In this document: positions 57,946-64,000 of the stretch, in pieces | Layout: each line of letters opens with the position of its first letter | Numbering within the stretch: position 1 is the first letter of the stretch | Origin: Opitutales bacterium | GTDB taxonomy: Bacteria; Verrucomicrobiota; Verrucomicrobiia; Opitutales; UBA2995 | DNA length: 64,000 bases | Direction of reading: 5' to 3' | Assembly: GCA_022824405.1 (NCBI GenBank) | Contig: JAJDZZ010000045.1 | Coordinates: forward strand, 124,001-188,000 | Position numbers and translations under genes: made by a program | The notes under the pieces: generated by a model | Told to the model about the DNA's origin: nothing | Databases searched by the model: none | The model's input: the letters and a program-made list of their open reading frames with translations, nothing else

Positions 57946-59679
57946 ATGGCATCAGCCCAGGCAAACGAACACATCCGCTACGAACCGGACGAGCCATGCC
58001 CACCCATTTTGGCCATGGGGGTCGGGATCCAGGGCATCATAATCGGGCTGGCGCCGACGGTGTTGATCGTGGCCATTACCGCCCTTGCGGCCGGCCAGGA
58101 TGAAGCCTACCTGTCATGGGCCGTCTTCGCAGCGCTCATAATCACCGGGGTGGCCACTGCGCTGCAGGCGGCCAAGATCGGGCGGCTGGGAGGAGGCCAC
58201 ATGCTCATTATGGGATCCACCCCCAATTTTATCGCCGTCTCGGTACTGGCCTTAGACGAGGGCGGGCCCGCCATGTTGGCGAGCCTGATTGTCCTGTCGT
58301 CGCTTTTTTACCTGGCATTTGCGGCCTGGCTGCCGGTGTTGCGGCGCATCATAACCCCGGTTGTCTCCGGCACGGTCCTCATGCTTATTGCGGCGATGAT
58401 CCTGCCCATCTCATTCGATCGGCTGCAGGAGGTTCCCGAGAGCGCTTCCGTGACGGCGGGTCCCTGCGTGGCGGGGGTGACGCTGGTTGCGGCCACGATG
58501 TTTATGCTGCGGGGTTCCCGAACTTTGCGGCCTTGGTCGCTCCTGCTTGGAATCGCGGCGGGGTGCGCCGCGGCGGCGCCATTCGGACTGTACGACTTCG
58601 AGCGGGTGAGCGCAGCGACCTGGATCGGAATCCCCCACAGCGGTTTTCCGGGACTGGATCTGACACCGAGCACCGGGTTCTGGGCGTTGTTGCCGATGTT
58701 CCTGATTGTGACCCTCGTGCAAGCGATCAAGGGCATTGGCGACGGCGTGGTCATTCAACAGGTGTCGCGGCGCCGTCCCCGCACGACCGACTTTCGCCTG
58801 ATACAAGGCTCAGCCTACGCCAACGGGATAGGGGTTCTGTTATCGGGTCTGGCCGGAACCCCACCCACGACCTCCTACTCATCGTCCACTGTCTCGCTCA
58901 TCAACCTCACGGGAGTCTCCGCTCGAAGCGCAGGATATGCCGTGGGAGCCCTGCTCGTGGCGTTGGCGTTCTTTCCCAAGATAACGAGCCTGCTGCTGAC
59001 CATTCCCAGCCCGGTCATGGGGGGCTTCCTGCTGGTCGCGGTCGGGATGCTCTTCGTCGAGGGGATACAGACCCTTGCCCGGGCCGGCCTCGACCCGCAA
59101 AAGGCCATCGTGGTAGGACTGGCCTTCTCCATCGGCCTCGGTATGCAGCATCAGAATGTTCTCGAGGACCTTTTTGGCAGTCCCTGGGGCGCGTTGCTCG
59201 GCAACGGCATGACCATCGGCACGGCCACCGCGATTGCGCTAACCGCGTTCCTGGAACTGACCAGCCCGCGAAGCCGACGCCTGGAGGTCCGGCTGGATAT
59301 CTCCGAACATCCCCGTGTTGACGCTTTCCTCAAGGAGATTGGGGCCAAGATGAAATGGGACGCCGCCTCAACCGAGCGGTTGCGTTCCGCCGGGGAGGAG
59401 ACCCTGGCGAGTTTGTTGCAGCCGGACGACGCCTACCCCGAGGGGGAGGCCCCGCGCTTGATCGTGGTGGCACGCGCCGGGAAAGGAGCGGTGGAAATGG
59501 AATTTCTGGCCGTTTTCGAGGAGGAGAATCTGGAAGACCGACTGGCCTATCTGGACGAACAGACCGAAACCTTCGATGAACGGGAGCTGTCGTTTCGCCT
59601 GTTACGGCATTACGCGTCCTCGGTGCGCCACCAGAAATATCACGGACTGGACATCGTTACGGTAAAAGTGACGCGGTAG
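57946..59679 (+). CDS. SLC23/NCS2-family nucleobase permease with C-terminal regulatory-like domain
   Basis: A 577-residue protein. Residues 15-440 form a uracil/xanthine permease-type membrane domain of about 12-14 helices, with [19 protein letters not shown] and the nucleobase-binding-like [20 protein letters not shown]. The last 130 residues are soluble and acidic; [30 protein letters not shown] and [20 protein letters not shown] suggest an anti-sigma/histidine-kinase-ATPase-like fold, with ligand role unknown. Usual family members stop soon after the last helix. GC-rich throughout, like the neighbouring accessory genes. Confidence 0.85.
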
Positions 59680-59694
59680 AGGAACGGAAATGGG

Positions 59695-60606
59695 TCAAAC
59701 CCGTGTAGTCCGCTCAATAAAATCGCGCGTTACCTCAACGCATTCCCCTGGTTGTTCCAGTTGCAGCAGGTGCGTTGCCTCGGGCAAAAAATCGTAGTCC
59801 ACGGTCATTACGTCACTAAGATCCAGCGTGGGAAGATAGGAGTATGGCAAGGTAGGATCGGCGCCGATGACCTTGATGGGGCATCGTAGTTTTTCAAAAT
59901 CAACCAAAACGGCAAAGGTGCGGGCGTAATCTACGAGTTGTGCTTCGTATTCCCGGGGGCATCGCAATTCATAACCTTGCCCGTTCGCACATCTGCGCAG
60001 CGTTGTCTTTGCCACGAGATCGCAAACTCCGGGCACGGCACGCTGATAGACGGGAAAATAGGGAAGAACATCCGCCAACTCCTCCCTGGACCGGAACCGA
60101 GGTGTGCGCCGCCGGGTCATGGCGGCCGTACGTGTAACCGCGGCATCGAATTCTTCGTAATTGTCATCGGGCTTACACAGGGGCGGATCAAACAGAACAT
60201 ACCCCGCGAACCTGCTGCCTTGGGTTGGCGATAAAAGCGTGATCAGAGCCGAAACCGAATGAAATACGCCTATCATCGGTTTCTTTCCGTAGTGGCGGTC
60301 GATCGCTTCCAGAATACAGTCGTGGTCCTGAACCAAGGTTGGGATATTATGATTTTTCAGGGTACCGACCGTGTTCCAACCATGATTTCTGAGGTCGTAA
60401 ATCATCAGGTCGAAATCGTCTGCCAGTTGTGACCAGAAAGGATAATAGAGATCGACTGCCAGACCATTGCCATGGCTCAGAACGAGCCGTGGCCCCGCCG
60501 GATTCCCATGGCGGCGCAAAATGATGACCGTGTCATCGTCCACGCGAACCTCGCTGGTGGAAAGCGGCTCAGGTATCTCCCATGCGGTTTCTGAATTCGT
60601 GGTCAA
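59695..60606 (-). CDS. Alpha/beta-hydrolase fold protein
   Basis: A 303-residue hydrolase of the epoxide-hydrolase/esterase-like superfamily. The oxyanion region LSHGNGLAVDLYYPFWSQL, DLRNHGWN (typical strand-4 motif) and the nucleophile elbow GVFHSVSALITL with serine are visible; the usual GxSxG is FHSVSA here. The final histidine probably lies in PEATHLLQLEQP. It is the last gene of the polyketide-like set and overlaps the PPTase by four bases, so it may release or edit a thioester product. Function is inferred from context only. Confidence 0.85.
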   Translation of the reverse strand: MTTNSETAWEIPEPLSTSEVRVDDDTVIILRRHGNPAGPRLVLSHGNGLAVDLYYPFWSQLADDFDLMIYDLRNHGWNTVGTLKNHNIPTLVQDHDCILEAIDRHYGKKPMIGVFHSVSALITLLSPTQGSRFAGYVLFDPPLCKPDDNYEEFDAAVTRTAAMTRRRTPRFRSREELADVLPYFPVYQRAVPGVCDLVAKTTLRRCANGQGYELRCPREYEAQLVDYARTFAVLVDFEKLRCPIKVIGADPTLPYSYLPTLDLSDVMTVDYDFLPEATHLLQLEQPGECVEVTRDFIERTTRV

Positions 60607-61319
60607 TTGGAATCCAGGTCTAGTTCATGGGCAATTGCAGCCGCGAAGCGCTCGTTGCCAAGGTCTACCAGCCGCCATCTGATTGCGGGCGCTTGCGGGA
60701 ATTGAAATGTGCACGTTGTCCCTCCTTGGCGCATGGCCGGTGGGATTTCGAATCGGGACATATCCAAGGAAAGCCCCAGGCCAAGCGCCTTGACCAATGC
60801 TTCCTTAAGGGTCCAGAAATCATAAAACAGGTGAAGTTTTCGGTATCCACGAGCCGAGGCAAGCTGGGCTTGTTCCTCCTGACCCAGCACGGTCCGGATC
60901 AGTCCATCGAGATCGCGCCGAACCCGGCGTTCCTCCACGTCCACCCCCAGTCGTCCTTCCTCGGCCAAGGCGATCAAGCCATGTTCGCCGCTGTGACTTA
61001 CGTTGAAGCTGATGGGAGCCGGTTCTCCCTGCACTAAGGCATAGGGCTTGCCGTGGTCGGAGGCGCCAAAGGCAAGCCGTTCATTTCTGCAACCGAGTCG
61101 CCGGCAGAGTAGGGCGCGGAGCGCAGTGCGACACAAGGCAAACCGGCGTCGAGGGCCTCGATGCAAGTATCGTTGCCGATGCGCCCGTTCTTTTTCATCG
61201 AGCCATGTCAAGGCAGCCGCTTCGCGGGCCGCATGAGGCGCCAAATCGACGTGTACGACCTCGGCACGGCCGACTTTTCTGAAGGGTCGCCACCAACACT
61301 CGACAACGGAAGTAGGCAT
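60603..61319 (-). CDS. 4'-phosphopantetheinyl transferase, Sfp type
   Basis: Activates carrier proteins by attaching phosphopantetheine from CoA. The 238-residue size is that of the Sfp/AcpT class, not the short AcpS. GKPYALVQ, ISFNVSHSGEHGLIALAEE, the metal motif GVDVEERRVR and FYDFWTLKEALVKALGLGL (the F/W-(S/C/T)-xKE-(A/S) signature) are present. It stands between a free acyl carrier protein gene (80 bases upstream) and a hydrolase gene, so its likely substrate is that ACP and/or the partner of the adjacent KS-AT protein. Confidence 0.93.
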   Translation of the reverse strand: MPTSVVECWWRPFRKVGRAEVVHVDLAPHAAREAAALTWLDEKERAHRQRYLHRGPRRRFALCRTALRALLCRRLGCRNERLAFGASDHGKPYALVQGEPAPISFNVSHSGEHGLIALAEEGRLGVDVEERRVRRDLDGLIRTVLGQEEQAQLASARGYRKLHLFYDFWTLKEALVKALGLGLSLDMSRFEIPPAMRQGGTTCTFQFPQAPAIRWRLVDLGNERFAAAIAHELDLDSN

Positions 61320-61897: not shown

Positions 61898-64000
61898 TTA
61901 GATCCAGTGGCGGCGGCGCTGGAACGGATACCCCGGCAGGGAGATCCGGCGCCGCGTCTCCCCGGCGAACAACCCCGCAAAGGAAACCGCCAACCCCGCC
62001 TCATAGGCTCCCGCAACCGACGCCACGAAGGTATGGTCCCCCGTCGAATCCTGCCGCGGACAGGACAATACGAGCGGTTTCCCTCTACTGTTGGCCGACT
62101 CAGGCCAGGACGAGCCTGCCATCGGACCTGACACCGAGTTCGGTCCAATTTCCACTACGACCTGCACATCCAGATCAGCCAGTGCCTCCAAGCATCTGTC
62201 GAACGCTACGGGCCCACCCGCCTGCCCGTTCCGGAAAGCCTTGTCGATGGAATCACCTGGCTTCACCACTCGCCCTGACATACTGCTCACAAAGGGGATG
62301 GATGGGGACGCAATACCGCTTGCGTCCAAGGCGCCTCGCGCTGCCGCCAACCGCAAACCTTCTTCAAGGCTGACCACTCCCGCGACCTGCGCTGCCACCA
62401 GTTCCCCGACGCCTTGTCCGGCCACCGCTCCGGGCAGGATCCCCACGCTCGACCAGAGCGCCGCCAGTGCGCTCTCCAGCGCGTAAAGGGCGGGCCTCGT
62501 CCACGCCGGATCGTCCAAAGCTCCTTCCGCATCGGCCCGACCGAACATCACCTCCAACAAGGATGCGCCCCGTTCTTCCCTCAGCAGCGCGTCGCAGCGA
62601 TCCAGGACCGCTCGCGCCACCGGCTCGCTTTGGTAGATCGCTTGGCCCATTCCGACCCGCTCCCTTCCCTCGCCGGTGAAGGCGAACGCCACTTTAGTCG
62701 CAGGCACCGGCTCCGTCCGCCCGTCCGTCTCTCTGAGGGTCTTCAGCCCATGCCGCAACGAGGCGGCATCACGGAATACCACGCCGGCCCGGTAATCGAA
62801 ATGACTCCTCCCCACTCCTGCGGTCCAGGCCATGTCGGCAAGGATGTCTTCCAAAGATGGCTCCCCTTCCTGCCTGTCGAGCCACGACAAATAGAGCCTC
62901 GCCAGATCCCGAAGGGCGCCGTCCGACTTCCCCGACAGAGGCAGGAATCGCGTCTCGCGCCCCCGCAACTTATCTTCTGACAGTGACAGGTCTGCCACCG
63001 GTTCCGGTAGCGAAATGGCTACGGGTTGCGCGGGACCAGCCGATAAATGCATCCCACCGTTCGAGTCGGAAGGATACCCTTCCACCACAACGTGAGAGTT
63101 CGTCCCCGAGATCCCAAAGGCACTCACCCCCGCTCGGGGCGGTCGTTCGGGATAGCTCGGCCAGTCCGTCTTGGCCGACACCACCTGCACCGGAAGCTTG
63201 TCCCAGTCCAAGTGCGGGTTCGGTTCCTGAAAGTGTAGATTCTTGGGAATTACCCCCCTCTTCATGGCCAGCACGGTTTTGATAAGGCTGGCAACCCCGG
63301 CAGCCGGTTCCAAGTGGCCGATGTTGGTCTTCACCGAGCCGATCAGCAACGGACGGTCGGCTTCCCTGCCCTTGCCGTAGACCGCCGCCGCTGCCTGTAC
63401 CTCGATTGGATCGCCAAACCCCGATCCGGACCCATGAGCCTCCAAATAGTCCACTTCCGACGGGCTGACACTCCCCCGCGCCAGCGCTTCTTGAATTACC
63501 CTTTCCTGTGCTGGTCCGTTCGGCACCGTCGGTCCGGCGCTCGCCCCATTCTGGTTGACGGCCGAACCGCGGATGACACCCCAGATGCGGTCGCCGTCGG
63601 CCTCCGCCTCGCTCAACCGCTTCAGGAGGACCATTCCGCAGCCTTCTGCCCGCGCAAAGCCGTCGGCCGCGGCATCGAAGGCCCTGCACCGCCCGCTCGC
63701 GGACAACATCCCCAACTCCGCCATCTCCCTGGTTAATTCAGGCGACAAAACGGCGTGTGCCCCTCCAACCAAAGCCATGTCCACTTCGCCCTCACGCAAA
63801 CCCATCACCGCCTGATGCACCGCCACCAGGGACGAAGCGCAGTTGAGTTCCACCGGTATGGTCGGCCCCTCCAAACCGAGAACGAAAGAAATTCGCCCGA
63901 CCGTCATGCTCGCGGCGGTACCCAGATAACTGATGCCATAGTCGCCGCCTGTCATCAGGTCTCGGTATTCACTGGTGGAAATCCCGGCATATAGCCCGGT
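61898..64000 (-). CDS. Polyketide synthase-like protein, ketosynthase plus vestigial acyltransferase (5' end beyond window)
   Basis: A 700-codon C-terminal part, running off the right edge at the 5' end; the frame is open to 64000. The ketosynthase has the active cysteine in VELNCASSLVAVH (about 63840), the histidines in EAHGSGSGFGDPIE and KTNIGHLEPAAG, and FGISGTNSHVVVEG. The AT region starts at AFAFTGEGRERVGMGQAIY but the GHSxG serine motif is GQGVG (62405-62419), and after RLAAARGAL it jumps to SIPFVSSMSG, losing about 100 residues of the small subdomain. It ends normally at LPGYPFQRRRHWI. It therefore needs an acyl donor loaded by another enzyme, or does not act as a standard module. Confidence 0.9.
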   Translation of the reverse strand, partial: TGLYAGISTSEYRDLMTGGDYGISYLGTAASMTVGRISFVLGLEGPTIPVELNCASSLVAVHQAVMGLREGEVDMALVGGAHAVLSPELTREMAELGMLSASGRCRAFDAAADGFARAEGCGMVLLKRLSEAEADGDRIWGVIRGSAVNQNGASAGPTVPNGPAQERVIQEALARGSVSPSEVDYLEAHGSGSGFGDPIEVQAAAAVYGKGREADRPLLIGSVKTNIGHLEPAAGVASLIKTVLAMKRGVIPKNLHFQEPNPHLDWDKLPVQVVSAKTDWPSYPERPPRAGVSAFGISGTNSHVVVEGYPSDSNGGMHLSAGPAQPVAISLPEPVADLSLSEDKLRGRETRFLPLSGKSDGALRDLARLYLSWLDRQEGEPSLEDILADMAWTAGVGRSHFDYRAGVVFRDAASLRHGLKTLRETDGRTEPVPATKVAFAFTGEGRERVGMGQAIYQSEPVARAVLDRCDALLREERGASLLEVMFGRADAEGALDDPAWTRPALYALESALAALWSSVGILPGAVAGQGVGELVAAQVAGVVSLEEGLRLAAARGALDASGIASPSIPFVSSMSGRVVKPGDSIDKAFRNGQAGGPVAFDRCLEALADLDVQVVVEIGPNSVSGPMAGSSWPESANSRGKPLVLSCPRQDSTGDHTFVASVAGAYEAGLAVSFAGLFAGETRRRISLPGYPFQRRRHWI

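Follow-up and report, generated by a model that had tools for sequence, protein, structure and literature searches.

Organization of the PKS locus

Near the end of the window (the whole analyzed stretch, 64,000 nucleotides in length), a minus-strand reading frame is open, with no stops, from position 61898 to the window edge, and it runs on in the contig beyond the window as a single open reading frame of 3405 amino acids. The initial annotation had taken this stretch for a separate KS-AT protein, which is wrong because the frame extends outside the window in one piece; extraction of the full gene places it at the C-terminus of a polyketide synthase (PKS) of 3405 residues. The Pfam domains of the PKS follow the order KS1-AT1-DH-MT-ER-KR-ACP1-KS2-ΔAT2, in which KS-AT-DH-MT-ER-KR-ACP make up one complete module with MT, and the protein, as predicted from these domains, consists of this module plus a C-terminal KS-AT (Table 1). 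The motifs are intact in AT1, DH, MT, ER, and ACP1. At residue 2364 (L004, G000:C51), the KR motif reads GQANHAAAN, with His in place of the usual catalytic Tyr, a substitution found in all 21 sequences that cover this region. The chemistry of module 1 is uncertain because this Tyr reads His in the relatives. No second type I PKS was found in the genome.

Identity between the two KS-AT units of the protein is 57–65% over most segments and drops to 49% toward the C-terminal end of the AT, and KS1 and KS2 form sister clades in the KS tree, each supported at 100/99. The KS-AT pair underwent an ancestral duplication within the family, with the second copy set after ACP1. When about 85,000 species genomes were scanned with KS2 as the query, 23 loci were identified that encode the same protein end, 58–92% identical at the best segment.

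Just downstream of the PKS lie, in this order, a discrete acyl carrier protein (ACP) that was absent from the initial annotation, a 4′-phosphopantetheinyl transferase (PPTase), and an alpha/beta hydrolase, the latter two genes overlapping by 4 bp. At 18 loci a discrete ACP lies close to the PKS, and its carrier Ser is present in 19/19 sequences, the window included. About 13 relatives have the PPTase next to the PKS, and the hydrolase, whose Ser, Asp, and His are invariant in 19 aligned sequences, adjoins the PKS in most of them; several absences of these neighbors reflect loci cut by short contigs. Overall, the discrete ACP and the hydrolase accompany the PKS across phyla. The convergent permease is likewise found near the PKS across phyla (17/23 loci) and has no obvious link to polyketide synthesis.

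Table 1. Features of the PKS locus in the window, and PKSs at other loci with a deleted AT small subdomain.
Feature	Position	Strand	Support
Second ketosynthase (KS2), portion inside the window (C-terminal)	62960..64000	-	Pfam ketoacyl-synt x2
KS2 start	residue 2594 of the 3405-aa PKS, outside the window		
KS-AT linker domain LD2	62696..62959	-	Pfam RhiE-like_linker / CurL-like_PKS_C
AT2 remnant, large subdomain only; without Ser, His, and small subdomain	62105..62695	-	
GQGVG replacing GHSxG, residues 3233-3237	about 62405..62419	-	alignment to AT1
In-frame deletion junction, small subdomain, about 93 aa net	62312..62335	-	
Post-AT tail, ending in YPFQRRRHWI, then stop	61901..62104	-	
Discrete acyl carrier protein, 80 aa	61400..61642	-	PF00550, E 1.9e-8, over cut-off
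4′-Phosphopantetheinyl transferase	60603..61319	-	PF01648
Alpha/beta hydrolase, candidate release enzyme	59695..60606	-	PF12697
NCS2-type permease, convergent, with C-terminal extension	57946..59679	+	PF00860
Other PKSs with AT small-subdomain deletion	L006:11482-23607, L031:16309-21900, L028:16276-19506		
Other PKSs with AT small-subdomain deletion	L029:9036-12266, L030:16276-19506, L062:8902-15246		

Truncation and loss of the second acyltransferase

The initial annotation described an acyltransferase that had lost its catalytic Ser and about 100 residues in a frame without stops or frameshifts, and the full-length gene bears this out. AT2 reads GQGVG for GHSxG (GHSIG in AT1 of the same protein), and residues 704–802 of AT1 (99 aa, including the catalytic H783) correspond to only 6–8 residues in AT2, the frame of which is open. 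The glutamine of the GQG motif is also lost (TGEG). AT2 therefore has neither the nucleophilic Ser nor, with its small-subdomain region deleted, the catalytic His (xAFH) of a functional malonyl-type acyltransferase (FabD / PKS AT). In family members with a readable nucleophile column, this position holds Gly (16/17) or Asp (1/17), and of 14 AT2 sequences only 2 retain the GQG glutamine and 7 the arginine of the active site. A search of the AT2 alignment for a substitute Ser/His pair yielded no conserved one: the conserved serines are S3185 and S3223, and no His column is shared by as many as half of the alignment rows. AT2 is thus predicted to be catalytically dead. AT1 has a complete active site and is the sole such AT in the protein. 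The AT matches in the genome are three, namely AT1 at full length, AT2 at profile positions 2–119 only, and FabD, encoded elsewhere, with GLSLG and AYHS.

The probability that the lesion is an assembly artefact or a frameshift is negligible, as the frame is open throughout and homologs with the same AT2 deletion, when sought, were found in many independent assemblies. The same lesion, or complete loss of AT2, in relatives assembled independently excludes chance and artefact for practical purposes. In six relatives (L081–L086), AT2 is wholly absent, and both the linker domain and the tail with YPFQRR are retained; this post-AT tail is conserved in the relatives with a readable 3′ end, those without AT2 included. 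The AT2-less relatives sit at three positions in the KS2 tree (L081/L083/L084, L082, and L085/L086), suggesting that complete loss of AT2 probably happened three times.

The dN/dS ratio of AT2 is 0.21–0.33 in most close pairs and 0.69 in one, about twice that of KS2 (0.03–0.18); it resembles that of the linker domain, and AT1 gives 0.05–0.22. A structure model of LD2, AT2, and the tail from the window (pLDDT 77, pTM 0.84, from a shallow alignment) matches PKS LD-AT structures across about 330 residues at a Z of about 32, which is consistent with a large subdomain and linker that fold as in an AT, a fold that says nothing of function. An AlphaFold model of the KS2 region of one AT2-less relative (L083) reached a pLDDT of 39 and was set aside.

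It was proposed in the initial annotation that AT2 is a maintained structural domain that has lost its activity. A scaffold of this kind that is required for function might be, for example, an ACP docking platform. Purifying selection similar to that on the linker domain and the predicted fold of the large AT subdomain would fit such a role; however, the six relatives at three KS2-tree positions keep KS2, linker, and tail without any AT2, and we consider a required scaffold distinctly improbable. The twofold dN/dS relative to KS2, together with the three separate losses, argues that AT2 is not a required domain. The remnant is under relaxed constraint and is dispensable; selection has maintained KS2 together with its linker domain and the post-AT tail. 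The best reading of AT2 is therefore that of a tolerated relic rather than a required scaffold, although the relic may help KS2 and its linker domain to fold.

Truncated ATs are also found in unrelated PKSs. Within the order, a single genome out of 373 (G134) carries a comparable truncation, in an unrelated PKS. The AT small subdomain is deleted and the Ser lost in G134 (GAGAG) and in Nostoc sp. C052 (GDGIG; one more such truncated AT occurs there), and the subdomain is deleted with GHSVG kept in PKSs on Calothrix, Aulosira, and Tolypothrix plasmids. Common ancestry of these truncated ATs with AT2 was rejected because their KSs are placed elsewhere in the tree; a tree group count of one change for them omits ungrouped rows and was discounted. 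The loss of the small subdomain in these unrelated PKSs indicates that AT gutting recurs.

The second ketosynthase and the discrete carrier protein

As the initial annotation had noted, the KS active site is retained. The Cys and both His (and the Lys) of KS2 are invariant in 23–24 sequences, giving KS2 the Cys-His-His(-Lys) set of a type I PKS ketosynthase and setting it apart from KS0 domains, in which a catalytic His is typically lost. Mean identity among KS2 sequences (0.745) is slightly above that among KS1 sequences (0.705). Compared with 51 other KSs, most or all of which have a different residue there, KS2 is fixed or nearly fixed at five positions; three of them surround the active-site Cys (T to L, A to N, and S to A), and one lies in the HGTGT motif (T to S), so that KS2 reads L-N-C-A and HG[A/S]GS where other KSs read T-A-C-S and HGTGT. 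These KS2-specific residues are present in 22–23 of the 23 KS2 sequences and almost absent from the 51 others. KS2, with its low dN/dS, invariant catalytic residues, high identity, and fixed clade-specific residues, is under strong purifying selection and probably specialized. The Asn before the KS2 Cys may be a marker for branched substrates; a literature search found no paper on these KS2 Cys motifs as such a marker.

It is conceivable that KS2-ΔAT2 is a decaying leftover of a lost second module, as AT2 is eroding, by both its dN/dS and its complete losses, and no ACP is fused after KS2. However, KS2 is as conserved as KS1, with catalytic residues invariant across several phyla, the discrete ACP is retained alongside it, and KS2 is present in every relative found (KS2 being the query, a relative without it would have escaped). 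A module on its way out is therefore very unlikely.

We propose instead, with a probability of about 0.6, that KS2-ΔAT2 is the C-terminal part of a highly reducing, C-methylating type I PKS/FAS in which KS2 works with the discrete ACP. Module 1, with AT1, would build a methyl-branched acyl chain on ACP1, from which the chain would pass to the KS2 cysteine, and KS2 would then condense it with an extender carried by the discrete ACP or, less likely, only transfer it. The extender would be loaded onto the discrete ACP in trans by AT1 or FabD, which is an assumption because the conserved neighbors of the PKS encode no discrete AT. The PPTase would activate both carriers, and the alpha/beta hydrolase would free the product. 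The route from ACP1 through KS2 to the discrete ACP is inferred from gene order and domain order, and the reliance on carrier-bound acyl groups already suggested in the initial annotation fits the discrete ACP just downstream. Condensation is favored because the KS2 histidines are retained, whereas simple transfer has to be considered because the surroundings of the KS2 Cys are altered. Since KS2 and the discrete ACP have been kept across many phyla while AT2 lost its active site and in some relatives disappeared, the pair probably carries out a distinct last chain-building step.

KS2 might alternatively act as a transacylase or gate that takes the chain from ACP1 once it is finished and hands it to the discrete ACP, and this would require no AT because no carbon-carbon bond is formed. 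The loss of AT2 tolerated everywhere, the L-N-C-A and HG[A/S]GS motifs fixed in KS2, and the conserved discrete ACP would all suit this role, and the changed residues around the KS2 Cys could mean that condensation has been lost. Yet both His required for decarboxylative condensation are invariant in KS2, whereas in trans-AT PKSs a non-elongating KS0 domain has typically lost one catalytic His. A pure transacylase thus seems unlikely. It is also possible that the discrete ACP could serve something else.

If KS2 does work with the discrete ACP as proposed, it may be a neofunctionalized KS with a re-tuned active site that no longer needs an AT of its own and that forms, with the discrete ACP and the hydrolase, an off-loading or last-condensation station in a widespread fatty-acid-like PKS of sponge symbionts. 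The stages of AT removal would then be preserved within the PKS family, which contains ATs that are intact (module 1), gutted, and gone; we advance this wider interpretation tentatively.

Relation to known PKS systems and distribution

The Sup (sponge symbiont ubiquitous) PKSs form a sponge-associated KS clade that spans several phyla and is distinct from characterized PKSs; they have been described as monomodular, and methyl-branched fatty acids have been suggested as their product (PMC4245539, PMC3908369, PMC10308959). Sup-type PKSs have been reported as the dominant PKS genes in sponge metagenomes. The PKS family described here, compared with them by published descriptions, is probably the sponge Sup PKS: it has one complete module with MT, and the MT, DH, and ER of module 1 fit methyl-branched fatty acids. 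It differs from the monomodular description in the extra C-terminal KS2-ΔAT2, which is unmentioned in the Sup literature searched, the original domain map of 2007 lying outside that search. A literature search on dead or vestigial cis-ATs likewise found no matching description.

In the AT-less modules of trans-AT PKSs, a KS and its KS-AT linker stand without a working AT, and the carrier is loaded by another protein (PMC11907408). KS2 and its linker are similarly without a working AT, which is either dead or absent. By contrast, KS2 arose within the family as a duplicate of the cis-AT KS1 that precedes it in the protein, being sister to KS1 in a tree built without trans-AT reference KSs; in addition, what is left of AT2 is its large subdomain, and the neighborhood encodes no dedicated discrete AT, the sole discrete one of the genome, FabD, lying elsewhere. 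In algal PKSs, evolution from cis-AT to trans-AT was proposed to proceed via loss of integrated ATs and module duplications (PMC4661987). The present case is a bacterial parallel to that AT displacement, with one complete module only and with intermediate stages still visible. The cis-AT KS-AT didomain of CurL (4mz0) is among the best sequence and structure matches of KS2-ΔAT2, although the AT of CurL is complete and AT2 is gutted. Overall, the arrangement is real and well conserved, and its interest lies in KS2 and the discrete ACP, not in the dead AT. A conserved AT-less KS2 with a discrete ACP and a hydrolase offers a concrete, testable model of chain exit from a synthase, and the graded natural loss of an AT beside a selected KS, with linker and post-AT tail retained, bears directly on the question of which KS-AT didomain parts are needed by the KS.

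The relatives come from MAGs of Latescibacterota, Acidobacteriota, Gemmatimonadota, Binatota, Alpha- and Gammaproteobacteria, and Nitrospirota. MAG prefixes, among them APA, RHO, and COS, agree with sponges treated in PMC8163846, namely Aplysina, Rhopaloeides, and Coscinoderma, and, as judged from these prefixes (the records name no host), the bacteria carrying the PKS are apparently marine-sponge symbionts. No orthologs were found in the same genus or family; a genus mate (G001) lacks the PKS gene and has FabF-like matches only. The nearest relatives differ between the KS1 and KS2 halves of the gene, and between the window and one relative (L065) identity is 86% in KS2 and 64% in KS1. The differing nearest relatives suggest horizontal transfer and recombination between symbionts of different phyla.

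In one relative (L081), about 160 residues of AT1, including GHSxG, are gone, and its near twin L083 has AT1 intact; the gap could reflect either genuine loss or a fault of assembly. At the contig end (L005), roughly 7–10 kb upstream of the PKS start, a Rieske/KshA-like oxygenase and a 5-alpha-steroid reductase family protein are encoded, and an NAD-dependent epimerase-like ORF lies close to them, a group of genes that suggests steroid modification.
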